This document shows positions 2,784 to 53,262 of a stretch of DNA of 64,000 bases, piece after piece. The notes under the pieces were generated by a model. It made no database searches. It saw only the letters and a list, made by a program, of their open reading frames with translations, and was not told the DNA's origin. The position numbers and the translations under genes are program-made. The DNA is from Metridium senile (lineage: Eukaryota; Cnidaria; Anthozoa; Actiniaria; Metridiidae): contig OX459095.1 of the NCBI GenBank assembly GCA_949775045.1, positions 26,334,978 through 26,398,977 of the forward strand, read 5' to 3'. The first letter of the stretch is position 1, and each line of letters begins with the position of its first letter.

Positions 2784-9505
<6,722 letters not shown>

Positions 9506-24700: not shown

Positions 24701-27700
24701 CGAACTTTAGTCCGTGATTCGTGAGTTCTATGTTGATCGTGACGCGTGATTCCCTTCATAATATGTACGTGATTCGTGATCCCCATATCAATTAGCTCCA
24801 TTTCGTGCAAGAGTTTTGTCTATATATGTCGACTCACCCTCGTTCCCAGGCCCTTATCACTTCGCTTTTGATGACTATACAGTAAACACCCGCAGTTAAT
24901 TAAGAACCTTTATTACCTGTGGCCAGCGGTAGCGGCCCACAGGTCTTAAAATGCAGCTCGTTCCTTCTTCACTACTTCAATGTCGCGTTTTAGACGAGCC
25001 CTTGATCAATGTGTCAGCAGTAATCATGCACTGTGTTGTGGGCTTCCTGTGGTCCCATCATGCCTTTCACCAATCACATGTAATTTTCGAGTGTCATTAC
25101 GGTAAATAAAGCTGTGAAATACCGATGATAATATGGACTATTTTGACCGAAATATGTACCATTACAACGGGAATCTAGCATTCTTTACTCGTCAGATTGT
25201 GGTGTTCCGCAAGGCTCTGTACTAGGGCCTCTCCTGTTTCTATTATACATTAATGATTTTCAAAACTCATCTTCTAAATTTGATTTTCACCTCTTTGCTG
25301 ACGATTCTAATCTTTTTTATAAAGATAAGAACTTGACTTCATTGGAATCTACTGTAAATGAACAGCTCTTGGCTTTGTGCGAACAAACTTTCTCTCAATA
25401 TAGAGAAATCAAACTTCGTAATCTTTCATCCGCCGCAAAAGAAACTATCTTATGACCTAGATGTATATATCAATAACAAATGTCTTAAACAAGAAACTAA
25501 CATTAAATATTTAGGCGTTGTTTTAGACAATCACCTTAGTTGGAAATCCCACATTGCTCTTGTTTGCAGTAAAATCAAAAAGAGCATTGGGATTATCAGT
25601 AAGGCTCGTCATTATCTAAATCTATCTATTCTGTGCACCTTATATTACTCTCTAGTTTATCCTTACCTTATTTACGGCATTGTTGTATGGGGTCACACAT
25701 ACGAATCTACCATTAAACCACTTCTTATCTTACAAAAGAAATTGATACGAATAATGACTTTCAGTGACTTTAAGGCACATACTAACCCTATGTTTCTGAA
25801 ACTAAAAATCCTAAAACTTCCAGAACTTGTTCATTTATACACTGGTCTGTTCATGTATGATCTCCATATGGAAAATCTACCGAACTGTTTTTCTTCCTTT
25901 TTTACCCAAGTGAAACAAAAACATAACTATAATACTAGATTGGCTTCCAAGTGTTCCTTTTCGCTTCCAAAAGTAAGAACTAATTTTGGTAAATTCAATA
26001 TAAGATATTCGGGAGCAAAATGCTGGAATTCAATTGATGAAACTCTAAAAAAAAACAAAAAAATAGAAATAAATTTAAAGAGAGGCTGAGTGATGAATTA
26101 CTCCGCTCATACTCTAGCTGAGATTATTCATATTTCTATAAGTCATATCTTAAAAGTTTGATCTACCTAGGTTAGCCCTTGTGGTTATTGTAGACAGCTT
26201 GTACCACTTATTTAAGTCTTTAAATATAATTGTAATTCTTTTTTATTTAATTATTGGTACTGAATAAACGATTGTTGTTGTTGTTGTTGTTGTTGTAAGC
26301 TACATTTTATTGACGAAGAGATCTTAAACTCTGAGATCGCCACCCCTTCCATTCGTGTGTTCTCTAGATAGCGTGAAAATGTTTTGCTAAAAATAACTGC
26401 AGGCCACAGGTCAACCCTGCAATCAGGGTCTCGTTCATAATTAGTTGATTGAGTGCGCGTGGTATTGCATTAGATACTGTGCGCATCATGTTATCCGCTT
26501 CGGTGATTTCTACCCATGCTACCTTTCGGTCTAGTCGCGTAGACTTGAAGCCTATTGACGACAATGTTTTTTGAATTGACTGTATCTATTTTCAAATCTA
26601 ACACAAGATGTTCCATTTCTAGGATAAATACTTCTGTATTCACCTGATGTTCATTTGCCTGGTTGCTGTGTTGAGTATCCTCACTGCAGCTATACCTTCA
26701 ACCAAACTGTCAACATACAACTTTGCATGTTCCCTGGGAAGTCTTGGGATCTTCGTTATCTTACAACTGATATGTGGTATCGTCATATTTTTAAAGGTCA
26801 GTAATAGATGAACAACGTTGTGATAAGGGACGAACCAGTCGATATTTGATGGGGGGAGGGGGTGGGGCCTCGATATTTTTTTTTCCTCCCTCAAATACAC
26901 CAAATCAAAACATGGCGTCCAATTTTAATAACTATTGTTCTTGACTGGCTAGCCTCGCATACATGTGAAAACTCCATTGTGTTTCAACATGAACTCGAGG
27001 CTTGCCAGTCAAGAACAATAGCTATAAAAATTGGACGTCATATTTCGATTCGGTCTATGTGGCACGAATTTTTTGATAGTTCGCAGGATAATTGTTTACC
27101 ATATTTGACATCTTTTACGATATTCTTTTGGGGATTTAACCCACCCCACCCGGCATATCAAATGGTCCGTCCCTTATATTAGACGTTTTCACACTATGAT
27201 GGACAGGTCGTCTTGTGATTTAACCCACCCCCGGGCCAGCTGGCATATCAAATGGTCCGTCCCTTATATTAGACGTTTTCACACTATGATGGACAGATCG
27301 TCATATGATGGACAAATCGTCTTGTGATTTAACCCACCCCCGGGCCAGCTGGCATATCAAATGGTCCGTCCCTTAATTAGATTAATTAGACGTTTTCACA
27401 CTAGTAGACGGACAAATCGTTTTATGATGGACAGATATTCTTATGATGGACAGGTCGTCTTATGATGGACAGGTCGTCTTATGATGGACAGATCGTCTTA
27501 TGATGGACAGGTCGTCTTATGATGGACAGGTCGTCTTATGATGGACAGATCGTCTTATGATGGACAAATCTTCTTATGATGGACAGGTCGTCTTATGATG
27601 GACAGATCGTCTTATGATGGACAGGTCGTCTTATGATGGACAGGTCGTCTTATGATGGACAGATCGTCTTATGATGGACAGGTCGTCTTATGATGGACAG

Positions 27701-28828
27701 ATCGTCTTATGATGGACAGGTCGTCTTATGATGGACAGGTCGTCTTATGATGGACAGATCGTCTTATGATGGACAAATCTTCTTATGATGGACAGGTCGT
27801 CTTATGATGGACAGATCGTCTTATGATGGACAGGTCGTCTTATGATGGACAGATCGTCTTATGATGGACAGGTCGTCTTATGATGGACAGATCGTCTTAT
27901 GATGGACAGGTCGTCTTATGATGGACAGATCGTCTTATGATGGACAGGTCGTCTTATGATGGACAGATCGTCTTATGATTGACAGGTCGTCTTATGATGG
28001 ACAGGTCGTCTTATGATGGACAGATCGTCTTATGATGGACAGGTCGTCTTATGATGGACAGATCGTCTTATGATTGACAGGTCGTCTTATGATGGACAGA
28101 TCGTCTTATGATGGACAGGTCGTCTTATGATGGACAGGTCGTCTTATGATGGACAGATCGTCTTATGATGGACAAATCCTCTTATGATGGACAGGTCGTC
28201 TTATGATGGACAGGTCGTCTTCTGATGGACATATCGTCTTGTGTGAGAACGGGACGAACACAAGACGACAAAGTTCTCTGATTTCGTTGAACTCACAACA
28301 TAATGTTTTCTTTTTCAGCAACGAGCGGCCAGCCAAATGGAGTCAAAGTATCATGCTATTTACCAGGTACTCTTTACAAATCATATCAAATTAGTTAAGA
28401 TATGGATAAGAACGATAGATAATATAATCGATATTATCGATAATATAATGACATTTGTAATACCGTAAAAAAATTTTGATTTAACTTTATTGACGTTTCG
28501 AGCTTTACCCCTTCGTCCGACGAAGCTCGAAACGTCAGTAAAGTTAAGTCAACATTTTTTACGCTGTTACAAATTTCATTATATTATCTATCGTTTATAT
28601 CAAACACCGACGCAGCCTATATTAGTTTACTCGCTAGTTTCCATTTCCATTAAGATATGGATAAGCAATCTTCTCAGTGATCATCCATTATTGTCACGTG
28701 TTTTTGAGCTGCATGCAGCTTTGGTTTCAGCTTTGATTAGGGAGAAGGAGATTAGGAATCTTGAACATGGTATCCTGACTCAATTTAAAAAAAACGAATG
28801 CACCAATTCAATCTTTGTGCGCATTTGA
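12735..28828 (+). CDS. Pentameric ligand-gated ion channel lacking Cys-loop cysteines, 5' incomplete
   Basis: Exons: 12735-12863, 13648-13845, 14407-14667, 15117-15260, 26623-26796 and 28319-28366, with a tentative last exon 28655-28828. The introns are GT-AG and all phase 0. The first six exons give 318 residues. The extracellular part shows ATWVDPNLQ, EWNPKIIFIND and LSDFPMDFQEL. The last is the Cys-loop position, but neither cysteine is present, as in bacterial-type channels. M1 spans HYFWSIALLMFFITG, M2 follows TSNQ, then IFKFAVSRNLP and LLDKYFC lead into M3, and LGIFVILQLICGIVIFL is M4. The predicted role is a ligand-gated ion channel at the plasma membrane; ligand and ion selectivity cannot be read. 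The signal-peptide exon was not found. Intron 4 (15261-26622) is 11.4 kb and hosts a gene on the other strand. Confidence 0.85.
13019..13155. repeat. GGCCGGTTGTAC-type MITE, copy 1
   Basis: Ends GCGCCGGTTGTACCAAGC and CTTCGTACAACTGGCC are inverted. The interior carries several variants of TATCCA-GGATAA. It lies in intron 1 of the channel gene. Confidence 0.7.
14077..14217. repeat. GGCCGGTTGTAC-type MITE, copy 2
   Basis: GGGGCCGGTTGTGCAAAGGG is mirrored by CCCTTCGTACAACCGCCCCC. Same family and internal TTATCC-GGATAA motifs as 13019-13155; it lies in the next intron of the channel gene. Confidence 0.75.
14735..14756. repeat. Poly-G run of about 22
   Basis: Uninterrupted G homopolymer in the channel intron after 14667. 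Similar runs occur near 20961 and at 37948-37975. Length is unreliable in most sequencing data. Confidence 0.9.
15425..15565. repeat. CCTCCGCAGGC-family MITE, degraded copy
   Basis: The right end GCCTGCGGAGGAGGCTAG and the internal CCACAGGAAGCCCGA match the better copies at 34789-34907 and 61544-61707. The left end is degraded. Confidence 0.55.
15691..15733. repeat. (ATTC)n microsatellite
   Basis: About nine ATTC repeats passing into GATC repeats, within the long channel intron. Confidence 0.85.
16207..16648 (+). repeat. Interspersed repeat with an empty LINE site, copy 1
   Basis: This 440-bp block (TATTACCTGTGGCCAGCGG to CAGGGTCTCGTT) is nearly identical to 24907-26437 minus its LINE insertion. 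The join GTCAGATTGTTGGTAAGC at 16498-16513 is the unoccupied form of the insertion site. The flank at 16120-16205 reappears inverted beside the second copy at 26495-26580, which suggests the complete element has about 90-bp inverted ends. Confidence 0.8.
17480..17866. repeat. MITE with about 45-bp terminal inverted repeats
   Basis: ATTGGCCAATACCAAAAC and AGGACTGGGTACTAGTTT on the left are matched in reverse on the right (AAACTAGTACCCAGTCCT to GGTATTGGCCAAT). Length 387 bp. The frame inside at 17570-17893 resembles no known protein. Confidence 0.85.
17914..18055. repeat. TAGCATGTAATATATTC-type MITE
   Basis: Inverted ends CTCGATAGCATGTAATATA and AAATAACATGCTATCAAGG. A diverged relative split by a nested insertion is at 34645-34926; both keep CCTTAAATTACCGC inside. 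Confidence 0.75.
18461..18682. repeat. MITE with about 50-bp inverted ends
   Basis: CCAGTTTCACATTTTCTAGC with CACCGCTGTACTATTTGGC at the left is matched by GTACAGCGGTGCTAGATAAC with ATGAAACTGG at the right. A solitary end of the same family lies at 21032-21064, next to the LicD-type gene. Confidence 0.85.
18690..18964. repeat. Foldback MITE with long inverted arms
   Basis: AATAGGCCTTTTGCAACAAC followed by AGGTCACGTGACCCTACCCC is mirrored at the right end, and the match continues through the GAAAAGAGCACCTC region, so most of the 275 bp can pair. It directly follows the element at 18461-18682. Confidence 0.9.
19284..19515 (+). repeat. Interspersed repeat, copy in plus orientation
   Basis: Homologous in reverse orientation to 55175-55405. 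Shared blocks include GGGGGATAGAATCGCC, AATGGTAATTTCAACTAAAT, ACATAACATACATAAA (reverse) and the GGCATTTTGTTGTCATTTCT segment. Family unknown. Confidence 0.75.
19567..19747. repeat. Perfect 62-bp inverted repeat with a 57-nt loop
   Basis: 19567-19628 and 19686-19747 are exact reverse complements over all 62 positions by manual comparison. The loop contains GACTCACGACGCGCAGCGG. A diverged echo of the arm (ATCACTGTTGTCTGGACTCT) is at 20449, so this may be part of a larger element ending near 20520. Confidence 0.9.
20722..20890. repeat. About 31-bp tandem repeat
   Basis: Roughly five to six units of AAATGAATATCATGCACAAC followed by a run of A and CTTG. It lies downstream of the LicD-type gene. 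Confidence 0.85.
21110..23032 (-). CDS. LicD/fukutin-type phosphotransferase, intronless, nested in the channel intron
   Basis: The start at 23032 gives 640 residues and fits a type II membrane protein: RSRAR then a hydrophobic anchor at 9-27. The open frame extends 52 codons upstream, but a TAG acceptor-like site lies just before this ATG, so the upstream part is probably a 5' untranslated intron. Residues 42-170 are about two and a half copies of a unit with FLQQKTRTA and ESTKTNR. The region near 210-370 (FVLVIPRI, GPFVIRRE, LALLDFFVRS) resembles the N-terminal half of FKRP-like proteins. The LicD core is GTLLGGERSESIIPYTRDVD (468-487) with the Asp-x-Asp of the family. Family members transfer phospho-alditols or phosphocholine in the Golgi; the exact donor is unknown. 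The lack of coding introns suggests a possible retrocopy. Confidence 0.85.
   Translation of the reverse strand: MIRSRARVLFISALIFSLMVLTYLWAFTDHQGNDQSAYKKPLFLQQQNTRTAFKESKKTNRNGKETLQTKLAQMSKENGFRQTKNGGIIIDNKGRSFLQQKTRTALTESTKTNRNVRGTPQTKLGAEMITENAFRQTQNGGITDDNKGLSFLQQKTRTAFIESTKTNRKKRNTSHASNDLSYKSLNGTFEKNFAVIDYSEYSFPTRLNNAPFVLVIPRILKMENNKKWIKERDQRAAMTAGSLLNSLGDFDGIACLPQKLNRENPQNPKSFKLREEWKGLFNSTWCNFLKREWSIQIRNTGKIKKFHFSNMRLSMIQLCNLVNGPFVIRREKFKKLNGFNARLGRLALLDFFVRSQGRFKIGKTSDCFFNDDLFKSDRGRLEGTGDFPEYSNFGSVHNVLRIIMEDRIEWTKCVATHKLCKEEPYKGPPTTLPEIAQPICCNVILGQILKDIVEVMNKRWIQYRVLFGTLLGGERSESIIPYTRDVDFTLDKKYAQNQESYATLQKYFGNKYFISGHSFIDFPRLISLMPAHLNITTGRFFKNEYDLEGDRFFSEAVNKSVEDFLPFESTEWITRPYADFYEVEDKLWDGSSTTVINGETYDTIKMKHEMLGKWYGSGWKTPALKRYHSHSDQGQALDKK
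23924..24353. mobile_element. Non-autonomous Tc1/mariner-like element
   Basis: Inverted ends TACAGTAAAAATCCGCATAT and ATATGCGGGTTTTTACTGTA bound 430 bp. CAGT...ACTG termini flanked by TA fit the Tc1/mariner pattern. The interior repeats TTAAGAACCAC and TTCTTATATG and has no reading frame. Another end of the family, TACAGTAAACACCCGC, is at 24878. Confidence 0.8.
24600..24800. repeat. Degenerate GTGATTCGTGA repeat cluster
   Basis: Multiple irregular copies of GTGATTCGTGA and GACGCGTGATT occur over about 200 bp. Origin unknown. Confidence 0.6.
25201..26089 (+). pseudogene. Reverse transcriptase fragment, frameshifted
   Basis: The first frame reads GVPQGSVLGPLLFLLYINDF and then FADDSNLF, the catalytic Asp-Asp box of non-LTR reverse transcriptases. 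Near 25360 the coding frame shifts to one that runs to 26089 with WLCANKLSLN, IKYLGVVLDNHLSWKSHI and YGIVVWGHTY, the usual thumb and C-terminal region. The endonuclease and the N-terminal fingers are missing. The frameshift and truncation make it non-functional. Confidence 0.9.
25201..26296 (+). mobile_element. 5'-truncated non-LTR retrotransposon (LINE) insertion
   Basis: The fragment begins within the reverse transcriptase palm and ends in a (TTG)n tail at 26270-26296, typical of a 3' end of a LINE that has lost its 5' part. The host repeat is continuous across the junction in the paralogous empty site at 16498-16513. No clear long target duplication is visible. Confidence 0.88.
26917..27042. 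repeat. Inverted-repeat MITE
   Basis: CTATTGTTCTTGACTGGCTA with GCCTCG is mirrored by CGAGGCTTGCCAGTC with AAGAACAATAG; the flanking CCAATTTT/AAAATTGG is also inverted. A related half is at 13905-13925. Confidence 0.8.
27125..27410. repeat. Direct repeats of about 100 bp preceding the 19-bp array
   Basis: Three diverged copies share GATTTAACCCACCCC, GGCATATCAAATGGTCCGTC, and TAGACGTTTTCACACTA, each followed by a short run of ATGATGGACAG units. This seems to be the junction where the minisatellite began. Confidence 0.8.
27410..28240. repeat. 19-bp minisatellite
   Basis: About 43 units of CTTATGATGGACAGGTCGT, alternating between GGTCGT and GATCGT variants. It lies in the channel intron between 26796 and 28319 and ends about 80 bp before the exon at 28319. 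Confidence 0.95.
28411..28649. mobile_element. 239-bp element with 16-bp target duplication, copy 2
   Basis: TTAAGATATGGATAAG occurs immediately left (28395-28410) and right (28650-28665) of the element. The interior has the palindromic core and tail of 7222-7430. It has no matching terminal inverted repeats, so a long target duplication suggests SINE-like retroposition. The insertion splits what would otherwise be one open frame continuing the ion channel. Confidence 0.85.
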
Positions 28829-46003: not shown

Positions 46004-46186
46004 CAATGGGTCATTCCACAGTATTTGGTTACCTCTCATGTGGTTTTGAAATTTCCCCAAAACTGTGTGTATTTGGTCTTAGAATAGTGTCAGGTAGTTG
46101 AAGTAAACGTTTTTGAAAAAAAAAATCATTTATGTGTCAGCATCTGAGAATAAATTGCAACTGATTATCGAAAATCATGAAAAAGC

Positions 46187-46553
46187 CGTTGCGGAGACTA
46201 CAAATACTTTATCAGATTAAAATGAAACAAACAGCCAGACAATTCTGAAAGTTTCCTGGACTTGTCCTACTAGTTGGCCTCTTTCAAAAAATACATGATC
46301 TAAGTTGGGTGTGCCAACACTATAAAAAATATTTATGTTCCACTGGCGAGATGTAGTCTCCGCAACGTTTTTAGACCTTAAAGTTTCTCCTGTATATTCC
46401 CTGATGAGAATTTTTGTATAAGTTTTTGAGAAGTTCTAATTCTTAACCAGGGAAAACATATTCAGTACAAAGAATTCAGTTTTTTCTATTAGTTTCCTAA
46501 TTATATCACTTTTAATTTTGTTGTGGAGACTACAATTTTGTTGCGGAGACTAC
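46187..46553. repeat. Left subterminal motif cluster of the transposon
   Basis: CGTTGCGGAGACTAC at 46187-46201, its complement at 46353-46367, GTTGTGGAGACTAC at 46520-46533 and GTTGCGGAGACTAC at 46540-46553. Successive sites are about 167 bp apart before the final close pair. Likely transposase binding sites by analogy with other DNA transposons. Confidence 0.8.
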
Positions 46554-47001
46554 ATTTTTGAAAGAAATCTTCTAAAAAGTGCTTTAAAGTTCCCCATCTT
46601 TATTTAAAATTAAAATACTTATTTTGATTTATTATAGAATAAGATTATTATTACTTTATTTACTTTAATTTATATTATTTATATTTTTTTATTTATTTTT
46701 ATTGTTATTTAAAAAAAAAAAAAAATGTGATTTTTTTTTTGTAAATTCTTTTTATAATCTTTTTTTTTTTTCAATCTTGTAAAGTGCTTCTGAACCTCAT
46801 AATTATTGCTAATATATAGAAATAAAGTTATATTAATATTATATAAAAATAAAGTTATTATATCATTATATTACTTATTGTTATTATAAATATACCATTA
46901 GTAAACTTGGGCTTCCTGTGGTAAGGTTCTGGGCATGTGCAGTTTATACAGATCTCAACGCATGGGATTGTGGGTAATTATTTCTAAATTGCACATCTAC
47001 A

Positions 47002-49896
47002 ATGTCTTCAAGTAGTACTCAAAGGAGCAAACGTTTTAGAGAAAAACTTAAAGAAGATGAAGAGAAGTTGGAAGTCTACAAGAGAAAGGATAGGGAAAGG
47101 AAAAAGAGAGAATATTTGAAGAAGAAGCATACTTTAGCAGAAAGTGAAAAGCTCAGAATAAGGAAAAAGAAAACCCTCAGACAGAGGCAATGGAGAGCAT
47201 CAAAGAAGAATAAAGATAAGGCTCATCACAATCAAGTAAAGAAAGATGCTACCACTGCAGGTTCATTCAAAAGTCCCCAGAGTCTAGGAAAGGCTGTGAG
47301 AAAAGTAAATAAAAGTTTGCCAAAAAGTCCATCAAAAGCCCACCATGTGATTGCCAATGTAGTTCAGCAAATGTCTCCAAGAAAGCGGAAGTCAGTTCTT
47401 GAGATTTGTGACCAACTTGTAAAGAAAAGAAAATCAGAAGTTGAGAAAAGAAAGAAGCGATCTGATGCAATATCTGATAAAGATACAAGATCAATTGAGG
47501 AGTTTTACATGAGGGATGACATAAGTAGAATGTGTCCTGGACGTAAAGACTTTGTTACAGTCAGATCAAAAGAAGGGAAAGAGCACAAGCAAAAGAGGCT
47601 GCTTATCTACAACATCTCTGAAGTATACGAAATCTTCAAAGCAGAAATACCAAGTATCCAAGTCAGCTTATCAAAATTTGCATCCCTTAGACCACCAAAT
47701 GTCCTTCCTATTACTCCTCGTGACCAAGAAGTGTGTGTATGTAAATACCACGAAAATATCAAGTTGCTGCTTGATGGCCTGAAAGCTGTAATTCCCGAAG
47801 TCCCAAAAACGCCAGAGGACATGCTACTTACTACTGTATGTAATATGGAGGATGTAGAATGTATAGATAGAGAGTGTTCAAAATGCCAAGTCCATCAACC
47901 GATTGAAAAGCTTTTTCAGTGCGATGACAACACTCCGATGTTTTACTTCCAGTGGAACATAGGTGATGATGGTAAAGCAAGGAAGGAGAGAGTAGAGTGC
48001 ACTGCTGCTGATGCCAAAGATGATCTCAAAGCTCAGCTACAACCTTTTGCCAGGCATGTGTACAATGTAAAGCGACAATTCAATGAGTTGAAATACCTGA
48101 AAGAGAACCTGCCTGAGGGGGAAATTATAATCCAAGAAGATTTTTCTGAAAACTTCCAAATAAAGTACCAACAGGAAATCATGGCAGCACACTGGTCAAA
48201 TGATTCAGTAACCATATTCCCAGCTGTTGTCTACTATAAAGACAAAAGAGGGGACTTACAGCATAATTCATATGCTGTTGTGAGTGATGAAATGGCCCAT
48301 GACAAAGGCAGTGTGTATGCATTCAACAAAGCCATTCTTAAAGATATTAAAAAGGTGACAAAAGTAAGGAAAGTCAACTACTGGAGTGATGGTCCCTCCT
48401 CTCAATTTAAGAACCGCTACAACCTTTCTTGTATCCTATACCATCAAGAAGATTTTGGCTGTGAGGCAACATGGAGCTTCTTTGAGACAGCTCATGGCAA
48501 AGGTCCTTGCGATGGTGTTGGTGCTGAAGTGAAAAGAGCTGTGTGGCGCTCAATCCTTAGAGGTACAGAAGTCGTCAACACTCCACATGACTTCTTTCAG
48601 GCTGCACAGAATGTTAGCAAGAATATAAATATATTATATGTGTCACAAGAAGATGTGAAAGGTGAATCTGATAACCTGAAAGAACGATGGGATGAGTGCA
48701 AGCCCATTCCTAAAACCCATACTATCCACTATGCTGCAAAACTATCAGATTCAAGTTTTATCACAGCAAAGAATTCTCAGTTTCTCATCAAAGATGGCGA
48801 GCAGAACGACACTCTTGTTGCCAAAGCTACCACACATCCAAAGTCAGTGCCACAACAATCATCCAAACAAGGTAGAAAGAAATCCAACAGTGTCAATATT
48901 GAAATGGGTCTACCACCTCACCTCACCCTAAAGTTTGAGAATATCTCTCAATACTTTACATTACCTATGCACACAATGTACATGGTAAATGGCATACTTG
49001 ATGGGAAAGTTAAATGGAAAGGGAAGGGAATTATCTCACCAAGCGACTTGGATTCTCTTAATGGTGGTTATGCTAAGGCAGAATTTAACTACCTCACAAA
49101 TTTTGTGGTTGATAGTTATCTTGAGCTTTTGAAAGCCAATAGAAACATGACTGATGTGACTGTATTTCCATGGGAAATATTTAAGACATTTATCACAAAG
49201 AAGCTCCTTTCTGAAAAGGCCTTGCTTCAACAGGATATAATCCTTGTACCATGCAACACTGCTGAAACCGAACATTGGTTTCTTCTTGCAGTATTTCCAC
49301 AAGAAAAGTTGATGGCTGTGCTTGACAGCTTAGCTTGTGCTTTTGTGAAGTCCACTGCACAAGCAGCTATACAAAGAATGTGGAGGCTACTACAAATGAT
49401 GGACAGCAGCCTTGATGTTAGTCAGTGGTCATTTGTTGCAAATAAAGCTTGTAACATTCCCCAGCAAAGTAATTCATTTGACTGTGGGGTATTTGTCAGC
49501 TTATATGCAAGGTGTCTTGTAGAGAATGATATCATGTTAGGTCAACCTGACATTCAAAAATTCAGAAAACACATGGTTGCTGAACTCCACAAGCAAACTC
49601 TGCTCACAACTACACCAAACATCGAAGTTGGCATGTATTATGCTGTGGACTATGTAAATGTGTTTTACATTGGTAGAGCCCTTGAAACCAGCGGCCAATT
49701 CACAAGTTTCAAATTTCTTCATAGCTCTGGTGCCAAGAAATTCAATTGGCCAAAAAGTGATGACTTAGAAGAGAAACACATCACCTGCATCTTCTATGGT
49801 CCAATAAAGTTAACAGGAAATGGCCCTTTTACAGTTGATGACCTAGAGGAAATTGAAGCCATTTTCAAGACCTACATTGTCAAAAAGGGTCGCTAA
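47002..49896 (+). CDS. Transposase-like protein with C-terminal Ulp1-type cysteine protease domain
   Basis: A single 964-residue frame. Residues 1-75 are strongly basic and helical (RSKRFREKLKEDEEKLEVYK), likely DNA-binding or nuclear targeting. A central segment has YWSDGPSSQFKNR (Asp463) and FFETAHGKGPCDGVGAEVKR (about 494-513). These blocks recur in transposon proteins of many invertebrates and probably form part of an RNase H-like catalytic core. Residues about 740-860 match C48/Ulp1 proteases: EHWFLLAVF (His758), LDSLA (Asp775), PQQSNSFDCGVFVSLYA (Gln822, Cys828), a complete catalytic set with the usual six-residue Gln-Cys spacing. The role of the protease in transposition is unknown; cleavage of SUMO-like conjugates is the family activity. 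No introns or disruptions. Confidence 0.85.
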   Translation: MSSSSTQRSKRFREKLKEDEEKLEVYKRKDRERKKREYLKKKHTLAESEKLRIRKKKTLRQRQWRASKKNKDKAHHNQVKKDATTAGSFKSPQSLGKAVRKVNKSLPKSPSKAHHVIANVVQQMSPRKRKSVLEICDQLVKKRKSEVEKRKKRSDAISDKDTRSIEEFYMRDDISRMCPGRKDFVTVRSKEGKEHKQKRLLIYNISEVYEIFKAEIPSIQVSLSKFASLRPPNVLPITPRDQEVCVCKYHENIKLLLDGLKAVIPEVPKTPEDMLLTTVCNMEDVECIDRECSKCQVHQPIEKLFQCDDNTPMFYFQWNIGDDGKARKERVECTAADAKDDLKAQLQPFARHVYNVKRQFNELKYLKENLPEGEIIIQEDFSENFQIKYQQEIMAAHWSNDSVTIFPAVVYYKDKRGDLQHNSYAVVSDEMAHDKGSVYAFNKAILKDIKKVTKVRKVNYWSDGPSSQFKNRYNLSCILYHQEDFGCEATWSFFETAHGKGPCDGVGAEVKRAVWRSILRGTEVVNTPHDFFQAAQNVSKNINILYVSQEDVKGESDNLKERWDECKPIPKTHTIHYAAKLSDSSFITAKNSQFLIKDGEQNDTLVAKATTHPKSVPQQSSKQGRKKSNSVNIEMGLPPHLTLKFENISQYFTLPMHTMYMVNGILDGKVKWKGKGIISPSDLDSLNGGYAKAEFNYLTNFVVDSYLELLKANRNMTDVTVFPWEIFKTFITKKLLSEKALLQQDIILVPCNTAETEHWFLLAVFPQEKLMAVLDSLACAFVKSTAQAAIQRMWRLLQMMDSSLDVSQWSFVANKACNIPQQSNSFDCGVFVSLYARCLVENDIMLGQPDIQKFRKHMVAELHKQTLLTTTPNIEVGMYYAVDYVNVFYIGRALETSGQFTSFKFLHSSGAKKFNWPKSDDLEEKHITCIFYGPIKLTGNGPFTVDDLEEIEAIFKTYIVKKGR

Positions 49897-50386
49897 CTTT
49901 ATTACACTGAGCAGATGTTTGATAATCACTGTGACATAATCTCTTTTCTACAACTTCACATTCCCAAATGCTTTGTACATTTGTTCAGCTTTTTAATCCC
50001 TAAACAGAAGTTACAATTGTTAGCATCAAAGCATTCTGGTATTTATACTTTACTGATGGCATCATTTATGAACGAAATACATGTTTGAATGGTTGAGCTT
50101 TATTTGGGCTCATTTTTTCTATTTCATTGTGCAAATTGTTGCAAAATAATTCAATTTGATGTCAAAATGCAGGTGTGCATATCGTATTGAATCAAACCAG
50201 TACAAAACCCTGGTTTGACATTGTGACAATATTGTTCATATTCGGAATATGAGGTCTTTGGATTAGCATGTAATTATGGTCTTCTCATTGGTGTTTTATA
50301 GATTAAATTCATCAAATTTTGATGTTTCAATCATTATTAAGGATTAATTTGTCATTTTCTCCCTTGTTTTCAAGAAAGTACTTTTT

Positions 50387-50783
50387 GTAGTCTCCGCAAC
50401 GTAGTCTCCGCAACGGTACCACCTTCTTATTTTCTATAATTTTCAGGCAATGTAATGGACTTAGGCCAAATATTTTGGCATATATTTAAACTAGATAGAC
50501 TAGCATTCAATGTAAGCAAAAAAAGAATTTTGAAAAGATCATAGAGTCAGAGAGTTTTGAACCTGAACTTTGTTGATCAAAACAGAGGGTTTTTTTTGTA
50601 GTTTCCGCAACAGCTCATGTTTAACTCAATGTAGCTCCTCCCGCTTTTGATTTATAAATGTTGTGTAGATTTTTTGAAAGCCCTGGAGGAGACCTATTGT
50701 GTAATACCACAATAAGTTTGTATTATTTGTTGAATGGAAATATATCAATCACTTAATTGCTCTGAAGTGTAGTCTCCGCAACG
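50387..50783. repeat. Right subterminal motif cluster of the transposon
   Basis: GTAGTCTCCGCAACG at 50387-50401, again at 50401-50415 sharing one base, a variant GTAGTTTCCGCAACA from 50598, and a perfect copy at 50769-50783, 22 bp from the right end. Most face the same way, opposite to most of the left copies. Confidence 0.8.
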
Positions 50784-51293
50784 GAGGAATACTGTGGAAT
50801 GACCCCAATACTTTTTTCAAATTATTGGAATCAATGAAAATAGAACTAATATCAATAAACAATGTAATTAATTAATTAATTATCATCTATAATTATCATA
50901 TTCTACATTTAACATATTTCAGTATAATATTATTATTACACAGAAATAAATTAATGCACTCTTTATATTTAAATATAAAATACATACTGAGACCATTGAG
51001 ACCAAGTGTAATGGGCTATACAAGAATTAAAGTTATTATTATTTAAGCTTTGCAATTAGGATTTGTATTCAATATTTCAATAATTATAATGACGGGTGAT
51101 TTTTCCCTTATTTTGAATTATAAATATATTAGATGTTTCAATGGTAGGTATTATATAAAAATAGATAGTTATATAGATATGGATAATATCTTGTTAATTC
51201 TTTTATATTGTATAGAAATATATTAACTAATATAAGTCCTTTTAGCCATGGATAGAACACATTCATTACATAATTATGTTAACACATCTTTTA

Positions 51294-51594: not shown

Positions 51595-51884
51595 GAGTGT
51601 AAACCAATACCTCAATAATATTTGGTACCTAATTTGACTGCTTCACCTTGACTGCTGCACTTTGTTTGGAAATAGTACACCTGCGCAGTACCACATTTGG
51701 ATATGACTGCCTTTGATCATGTCCTGGTAATGATGCTGATCTTGTCCAATACACAAAACTGACATTCATTCTAGTTAGTATTACATTATAGCCAGATCAT
51801 ATGTGGATTAAACAGCATACTTTCACTTGAGGTATCTTATTCTCAGACCATCATCATACTATCATAATAACTTAGTTTTCATGG

Positions 51885-53262
51885 ACAGTTGTTCTTTACT
51901 CTGGCATAATTTCCATGGACAGTACTGTTGTTCTTTACTGGCATAATTTTCATGGGCAGTTGTTGTTTACTGGCATAACTTTCCTGGACAGTTGTTCTTT
52001 ACTGGCATAATTTTCATGGACAGTTGTTCTTACTAGCATCATTTCCATGGACAGTTGTTCTTTACTGGCATAATTTTCATGGATAGTTGTTCTTTACTGG
52101 CATAATTTCCATGGACTGTTGTTCTTTACTGGCATAATGTTCATGGACAGTTGTTCTTTACTGGCATAATGTTCATGGATAGTTGTTCTTTACTGGCATA
52201 ATTTCCATGGACTGTTGTTCTTTACTGGCATAATTTCCATGGACTGTTGTTCTTTACTGGCATAATGTTCATGGACAGTTGTTCTTTACTGGCATAATGT
52301 TCATGGATAGTTGTTCTTTACTGGCATAATGTTCATGGACAGTTGTTCTTTACTGGCATAATGTTCATGGATAGTTGTTCTTTACTGGCATAATGTTCAT
52401 GGACAGTTGTTCTTTACTGGCATAATGTTCATGGATAGTTGTTCTTTACTGGCATAATTTCCATGGACAGTTGTTCTTTACTGGCATAATGTTCATGGAT
52501 AGTTGTTCTTTACTGGCATAATGTTCATGGACAGTTGTTCTTTACTGGCATAATGTTCATGGACAGTTGTTCTTATAACTGGCATAATGTTCATGGACAG
52601 TTGTTCTTTACTGGCATAATGTTCATGGATAGTACTGTTGTTCTTTACTGGCATAATTTTCATGGGCAGTTGTTGTTTACTGGCATAACTTTCCTGGACA
52701 GTTGTTCTTTACTGGCATAATTTTCATGGACAGTTGTTCTTACTAGCATCATTTCCATGGACAGTTGTTCTTTACTGGCATAATTTTCATGGATAGTTGT
52801 TCTTTACTGGCATAATTTCCATGGACTGTTGTTCTTTACTGGCATAATGTTCATGGATAGTTGTTCTTTACTGGCATAATGTTCATGGACAGTTGTTCTT
52901 TACTGGCATAATGTTCATGGATAGTTGTTCTTTACTGGCATAATGTTCATGGACAGTTGTTCTTTACTGGCATAATGTTCATGGATAGTTGTTCTTTACT
53001 GGCATAATTTCCATGGACAGTTGTTCTTTACTGGCATAATGTTCATGGATAGTTGTTCTTTACTGGCATAATGTTCATGGACAGTTGTTCTTTACTGGCA
53101 TAATGTTCATGGACAGTTGTTCTTATAACTGGCATAATGTTCATGGACAGTTGTTCTTTACTGGCATAATTTCCATGGACAGTTGTTCTTTACTGGCATA
53201 ATGTTCATGGATAGTTGTTCTTAACTGGCATAATTTCCATAGATAGTTGTTCTTTACTGAAA
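51885..53262. repeat. 32-bp minisatellite with higher-order duplication
   Basis: More than 40 units of TTGTTCTTTACTGGCATAAT with GTTCATGGACAG and variants (GATAG, TTTCC, TTTTC). A rare variant block (GTACTGTTGTTCTTTACTGG then CATGGGCAGTTGTTGTTTAC) at about 51921 is repeated at about 52632, a 711-bp shift, so the right half is a block copy of the left. Confidence 0.95.

Follow-up and report, generated by a model that had tools for sequence, protein, structure and literature searches.

A recently amplified DNA transposon of Metridium senile with a transposase-fused C48 protease and a probable exchange of the protease cassette between transposase lineages

A transposon of 4,798 bp was found at positions 46008..50805 of a 64,000-nt stretch of Metridium senile contig OX459095.1, which as a whole is referred to as the window. 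It is likely that this is an autonomous cut-and-paste element in a recent burst which brings a SUMO-type C48 protease to the element, and that the protease and the adjoining beta-barrel form a cassette that was recombined between transposase lineages.

An earlier note on this DNA had described a complete and recent transposon whose protein joins a transposase-like region to a C48 protease with four catalytic residues, and the description was confirmed in these points. The 18-bp terminal inverted repeats (TIRs) agree at 18 of 18 positions, a CAAT pair flanks them, and a frame of 964 aa is open in between. The features of the element are:

46004..46007, no strand: left target-site duplication CAAT (each of the other 24 full copies has its own matching pair)
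46008..46025, +: left TIR GGGTCATTCCACAGTATT (window and genome 18-mer scans)
46188..46201, -: subterminal site GTAGTCTCCGCAAC, 180 bp from the 5' end
46353..46366, +: subterminal site GTAGTCTCCGCAAC, 345 bp from the 5' end
46520..46533, -: subterminal site GTAGTCTCCGCAAC with 1 mismatch, 512 bp from the 5' end
46540..46553, -: subterminal site GTAGTCTCCGCAAC, 532 bp from the 5' end
47002..49896, +: 964-aa transposase-protease, single uninterrupted frame (intact in 25/25 copies)
47437..48804, +: core of the transposase (residues 146-601) with an RNase H-like fold and a Cys/His motif
48139..48141, +: D380, proposed first catalytic acid (just past strand 374-379 in the model)
48388..48390, +: D463, proposed second catalytic acid (at the end of strand 457-463)
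48511..48513, +: D504, proposed third catalytic acid (at the start of helix 502-519)
49069..49599, +: C48/Ulp1 protease domain, about residues 690-866
49273..49275, +: catalytic His758 (alignment of C48 rows)
49324..49326, +: catalytic Asp775 (alignment of C48 rows)
49465..49467, +: catalytic Gln822 (alignment of C48 rows)
49483..49485, +: catalytic Cys828 (alignment of C48 rows)
49624..49830, +: C-terminal beta-barrel, residues 875-943 (found in C48, OTU and protease-less relatives)
50387..50400, +: subterminal site GTAGTCTCCGCAAC, 405 bp from the 3' end
50401..50414, +: subterminal site GTAGTCTCCGCAAC, 391 bp from the 3' end
50598..50611, +: subterminal site GTAGTCTCCGCAAC with 1 mismatch, 194 bp from the 3' end
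50769..50782, +: subterminal site GTAGTCTCCGCAAC, 23 bp from the 3' end
50788..50805, -: right TIR (window and genome 18-mer scans)
50806..50809, no strand: right target-site duplication CAAT (matches the left CAAT)

Within the window, the 18-mer of the TIR occurs only at these two places at up to 3 mismatches (chance mean 0.07). The eight subterminal sites, four per end (six exact, two with one mismatch), had not been mentioned in the earlier note; a scan of the rest of the window at up to 2 mismatches gave no further GTAGTCTCCGCAAC (chance mean 0.18). Outside the element, tandem arrays are present at 3237-6413 (18-bp unit TGTCACCACTACCATCAG and CAT-rich repeats), 27417-28240 (19-bp unit, ~43 copies) and 51878-53259 (32-bp unit, ~43 copies). 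The first array probably explains the overlapping ORFs of 1,053, 952 and 853 aa; the frame of 1,053 aa matches CREPT (E 1.8e-11), which may stem from the repeat.

The genome from which the window was taken (G000; 389 Mb, 169 contigs) contains 25 copies of full length, spread over ten contigs, and a partial one at 98%. Sixteen of the 25 copies, including that of the window, are letter-identical over 4,798 bp. In the others, the first two bases (L043), one base each (L044-L049), a single-base deletion (L050) or a deletion and at least one more change (L051) were observed. The 964-aa frame is kept in all 25, with one changed residue in two of these. The burst is so recent that most copies are still unchanged, and it may be under way even now. 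In this genome the exact 18-mer was counted 50 times (reversed-pattern control 0); these matches are both ends of 24 copies, one end of the copy on C4 and one end of the partial, truncated copy on C12. Copies with the same ends and without the protease, which the earlier note had named as contrary evidence, were not seen, exact ends being found only at full-length copies and at the one truncated copy; no short derivative with exact 18-bp ends was found in the whole-genome scan. At up to 2 mismatches, 50 additional matches were obtained (control 3), part of them at the ends of older relatives.

All 25 copies have matching 4-bp target duplications, at 25 distinct sites. The duplications are AT-rich (ATAT 7/25, TATA 4/25; TAAT and GAAC also occur), and the share of ATAT and TATA compares with 1.5% of the 4-mers of the window (P 3e-14) and 3.1% in the flanks (P 7e-11). 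With TIRs and duplications of fixed length in multiple copies, the element has the marks of a cut-and-paste TIR element.

Beside these copies, some further observations were made in the same genome. In L043 (201-202, on C4), TA replaces GG at one end of an otherwise identical copy with intact duplication, which is possibly due to imprecise end processing. The 2-mismatch scan also returned AGGTCATTCCATAGTATT at 16 places. Seven of these loci, with eight sites, were fetched, and AGGC directly precedes every site, so AGGTCATTCCATAGTATT is probably an internal part of a different repeat family. A mini-element of 76 bp (L054:703-778, on C3) consists of GGGTCATTTCACAGTATC and a near-match inverted copy with AAAT at both flanks, and a second pair with the same spacing is located at C3:1489602-1489677; the L054 mini-element is possibly a short non-autonomous derivative of a related family. 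On C8, ~2.5 kb lie between the related ends GTGTCATTTCACAGTATT and GGGTCATTTCACAGTATC (L053:2569-5081), the 4-bp flanks of which differ (AAGA, TTAA). This interval holds two fragments of the C48 cassette (39 and 62% identical), and no transposase core was found in it with four query proteins.

The core of the protein contains a Cys/His motif (C245, C247, H250, C280, C287, C292, C295), and its predicted structure shows the topology of RNase H, the three conserved acids lying where they are expected. Building a structure model had been suggested in order to look for precisely such a fold. In the alignment of 196 rows, D380 is conserved in 193 of the 194 rows with a letter at this position, D463 in 196/196 and D504 in 194 of the 195 with a letter. 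Judged from the model and this conservation, the protein is a DDE/D-type transposase of the RNase H fold with a predicted DDD triad D380/D463/D504. With Foldseek, no match below E 0.001 was obtained for the core, and the top entries were Argonaute, RNase H and RuvC chains; re-ranking of this list by VIA-align placed retroviral integrases first. In the comparison of the whole model, the C48 region was the sole part well tested, and the barrel was given no fold name.

The C48 domain was identified by Pfam (E 2e-14, residues 733-861), and the profile match is accompanied by the His-Asp-Gln-Cys tetrad. Among the 31 C48 rows examined, H758, D775, Q822 and C828 are kept in all 27 that have letters at all four positions. 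The domain is probably active. The closest solved structures by sequence and fold are SENP1, SENP2 and SENP5. In comparison to the SUMO proteases SENP1, SENP2 and Ulp1, the identity is 15-27% over the aligned residues, and here the domain is fused to a transposase. A protein search with the C48 region only yielded four proteins, including that of the window, all of them in this superfamily, which does not point to a particular host origin of the protease.

Searches with the window protein (240 matches, of which the best 120 were listed) and with an OTU-bearing relative (216 matches, the best 120 listed) provided 196 rows, i.e. 195 database proteins including that of the window, and L002. Acropora, Lottia, Plakobranchus, Patella, Diabrotica, Frankliniella, Asterias, Antedon, Styela and the fish Neoarius are among the sources named in the listed matches. 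The 196 rows comprise 30 with C48, 9 with OTU and 107 with a barrel and without a protease; the remaining 50, in which no barrel was found, were labelled unknown and kept out of the protease-less count. P0196, which was found later, is one more C48 row, and of the C48 rows, then 31, four match only in part. From core to barrel, the gap measures 19-81 aa in 107/107 protease-less rows, 191-232 aa in 9/9 OTU rows and 286-408 aa in the 23 of 30 C48 rows in which it could be measured. These three distinct ranges indicate a single slot between core and barrel with three fillings. The capture of a Ulp1 protease, which the earlier note regarded as special to this element, is consequently a feature shared with relatives, and a single capture of a host Ulp1 private to the element was rejected, because relatives carry the protease as well.

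In genome contigs, the protein search revealed one relative, L002, in a sponge-associated MAG, and none was found in viral contigs. Eighteen IMG/VR viral contigs (L001, L003-L019) showed one match each to the end or site pattern; all were taken as chance, L001 alone having been inspected at the sequence level. A distant relative with a 713-aa frame in the fetched stretch was observed in G000 (L069:797-2938, minus strand, on C1; hhalign probability 99.9% over 378 columns), for which no Pfam match to a transposase or to C48 was found. Four other places in this genome match P0001 at nearly the score of L069 and over the same residues.

The phylogeny of the core was calculated from 92 of the 141 rows with at least 350 core residues and a known label (C48 26/26, OTU 8/8, protease-less 58/107, the latter being those nearest to the queries by identity and 30 random draws). 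On this tree, the 26 C48 rows are split into two distant clades of 13, and a single C48 clade was rejected (p 4e-6) in an AU test from which eight protease-less rows with end branches of 0.76-1.58 had been dropped, while some rows with similar branches were retained. If the core tree is calculated from 27 C48 rows alone, each clade has a support of 100/100. The C-terminal parts are grouped differently. For the C48 domain (tree of 27 of the 31 C48 rows), none of 200 bootstrap trees keeps clade I together (AU p 0.028), and in the tree of the C-terminal half (C-half; 23 rows) it is likewise never whole and the clades are mixed (AU p 0.007). In a quick barrel tree of 83 columns only, the protease-bearing barrels form one group of 30 rows (20 C48, 7 OTU, 3 without protease; SH-aLRT 99).

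The same conflict is seen inside single genes. The core of P0016 belongs to clade II, and joining it to P0001 was rejected (p 3e-28), whereas its C-half is sister to that of P0001 (100/99) and joining it to P0021 was rejected (p 1e-5). The switch lies after residue 684, in a poorly conserved linker: P0021-like states are found at 217 of 242 informative sites before the break and at 27 of 90 after it, a contrast reached by 0/2000 shuffles. These tests of P0016 were picked after the data had been seen. P0016 is present on two contigs (the longest 878 kb), so a short mis-assembly is unlikely. In G000 itself, the decayed relative L060 (C6:17153500-17161500), the reading frame of which is interrupted, has a core that is 65% identical to P0021 and P0016 and 34% to P0001. 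In the C-half, by contrast, the identity of L060 amounts to 57.5% with P0001, 59.8% with P0009, 67.7% with P0016 and only 44.6% with P0021. The hybrid make-up is thus present in the host itself, at a chromosomal locus; more C48-bearing fragments occur elsewhere in this genome. P0016 and L060 each combine the core of another lineage with a cassette resembling that of the window element. Together with the conflict between the trees of core and C-half, this makes an exchange of the cassette between transposase lineages probable.

The ends of L060 were assigned to GGGCCATTCCAC and GGGCAATTCCAC, with AAAA at both flanks. They are likely rather than proven, since the scan of the locus gave two other partial matches too and AAAA is a simple sequence. 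The end-like repeats of the protease-less L002 are similar, not identical, to the TIRs of the window element; this pair alone is within chance (42/200 shuffles) and its 4-bp flanks do not match (AAAT vs TTCT), and the assignment therefore rests on the repeat together with the spacing of the sites. Matching arrays of sites were detected in both elements (GTCATGTCCGCAAC in L060, GTACGTCCAACACC in L002). One type of end has sites at 23, 194, 391 and 405 bp in the window element (3' end), at 12, 181, 369 and 390 bp in L002 (3' end) and at 12, 192, 382 and 404 bp in L060, where it is the 5' end and the site at 192 has 3 mismatches. The other type has sites at 180, 345, 512 and 532 bp in the window element (5' end), at 364, 518, 541 and 555 bp in L002 (5' end) and at 347, 513 and 528 bp in L060 (3' end). 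Over the elements, the distances thus correspond to ~12-23, 181-194, 369-391 and 390-405 bp at the one end and to ~345-364, 512-518 and 528-541 bp at the other, and the site near 180 is present in the window element alone. The gene of L060 is inverted relative to the ends when compared to the window element and L002. It is likely that the subterminal sites are binding sites of the transposase, as predicted from these arrays. The ~165-200 bp between the sites resemble nucleosome spacing, from which no claim is made.

According to the proposed mechanism, the DDD transposase would recognise the 18-bp TIR together with the arrayed 14-bp subterminal sites, excise the element and insert it with a 4-bp stagger, AT-rich targets and often ATAT or TATA being preferred. 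Cut-and-paste by the DDD domain is the best supported part of this mechanism. The C48 domain may be an active isopeptidase for SUMO, or for a related ubiquitin-like modifier, that is carried to the element by the transposase. Its targets there would be modified host proteins of silencing or repair, or the transposase, from which it would strip the modifier. In animals, silent chromatin is promoted by SUMO (PMC8131101), and its removal at the element would therefore be a reasonable way to stay expressed; the protease perhaps counters host silencing. Protease and barrel would be passed on as one cassette, for which one breakpoint was mapped. A wider proposal, which is put forward tentatively and towards which we lean slightly less than away from it, is that this animal transposon superfamily trades counter-defence modules. 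The slot would hold either a SUMO or an OTU protease or stay empty, and the cassette would recombine inside host genomes. Ends, transposase and protease would then be three separable modules, and the gene could stand in either orientation between two unlike ends.

The conflict between the trees might be explained without any exchange, if an ancient transposase with C48 had lost the protease many times and the likeness of the C-halves resulted from uneven rates. Losses are easy; the protease-less P0049, P0123 and P0125 have a barrel of the protease type, and five label changes on the core tree are readable as losses. However, C48 diverges faster than the core within the clades (identity 49.5 vs 63.1% and 43.9 vs 55.3%) and is yet closer between them (41.2 vs 34.1%). 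The barrels of C48 rows are 50.2% identical between the clades, but only ~19% like those of the chosen protease-less rows nearest by core (8 and 5 rows). Together with the switch inside P0016 and L060, this makes an explanation by losses very improbable, and an exchange of the cassette is preferred. An action of the C48 domain on a modifier other than SUMO, such as NEDD8 or ubiquitin, is unlikely in view of the SENP proteases as nearest solved structures. The main alternative to the counteraction of silencing is a role in transposition or repair, where the protease would serve the stability of the transposase or steer repair at excision and insertion sites. Such a role has been proposed for the Ulp1 and OTU domains of Ginger1 (PMC2836005, available text), and through the fusion the protease would come to lie at the ends of the DNA. 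On the other hand, 107 of the 146 labelled rows have no protease and 39 have C48 or OTU (50 more are unlabelled), and for this reason the protease is probably not required for transposition in the superfamily, as far as the rows can tell; a function in transposition is possible, but we regard it as rather doubtful.

It is an almost evenly balanced question whether the element belongs to a catalogued family of Sola, or another one in Repbase, so that only the C48 domain would be noteworthy. Sola is defined by a DDD catalytic triad, and both this triad and the 4-bp AT-rich duplications agree with the element. No transposase profile was matched in Pfam, which does not count against Sola: at E values up to 1, C48 was the only match of the protein. 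The same search had been proposed for recognising an element of the Zisupton type, and in Pfam, which we take to include a KDZ model, no KDZ profile was found for any of the 56 members of alignment A1 (the protein itself included) at E values of 0.01 or below. Zisupton/KDZ elements have target duplications of 8 bp; membership was rejected with 4 bp in 25/25 copies. Mutator/MULE membership was likewise rejected, as no such match was obtained at E up to 1 with a library that does include a Mutator model; the target duplications of Mutator are also longer. Ginger1 was excluded, as the TIR starts with GGGTCA and none of the 25 duplications is CCGG, CCGT or ACGG.

Among the papers covered by the search, none was found that combines Sola, Ulp1, transposase and DNA transposon, and among the matches listed for the TIR string none was on transposons by title. 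In the titles and beginnings of abstracts that were listed, with subscription papers, Repbase reports and supplements outside this scope, no report was found of a C48/OTU slot in a superfamily with such a transposase and such ends; a prior description of the slot or the superfamily is possible. SUMO- and ubiquitin-system proteases occur in transposases of several superfamilies. With 16 letter-identical copies, a conserved tetrad, protease-less relatives and natural hybrids, a direct test of the role of the protease is feasible here.

In comparison to known systems, the element shares with Sola the 4-bp AT-rich duplications, short TIRs and a DDD-type transposase, a comparison made by description and not by sequence. 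For Sola2 in slime moulds, the available text of PMC3627910 gives AT-rich 4-bp duplications of the AWWT type and TIRs of 12-21 bp; ATAT is the sole AWWT type here (7/25). Ginger1 resembles the element in a transposase with a C-terminal OTU or Ulp1 domain, 4-bp duplications and animal hosts. The Ginger1 transposase is, however, similar to Gypsy integrases, with TIRs of 40-270 bp starting with TGTNR and CCGG or CCGT duplications (PMC2836005, available text), whereas here an 18-bp TIR (GGGTCATTCCAC...) and AT-rich duplications occur and Pfam recognises C48 only, though the fold is integrase-like. Mutator elements of plants and animals also carry Ulp1/C48 in a DNA transposon (cited in the available text of PMC2836005), but no Mutator or MULE profile matches the present protein. 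A further likeness exists to the fungal TET/JBP genes, which according to the available text of PMC12730594 encode a presumed anti-silencing enzyme that was passed between transposon lineages. TET/JBP is a separate gene directed against DNA methylation, whereas here an in-frame protease occupies a fixed slot, with a mapped break inside the coding sequence. If the cassette is indeed a tradeable anti-silencing module, it would be an animal counterpart of the fungal TET/JBP genes at the protein level.
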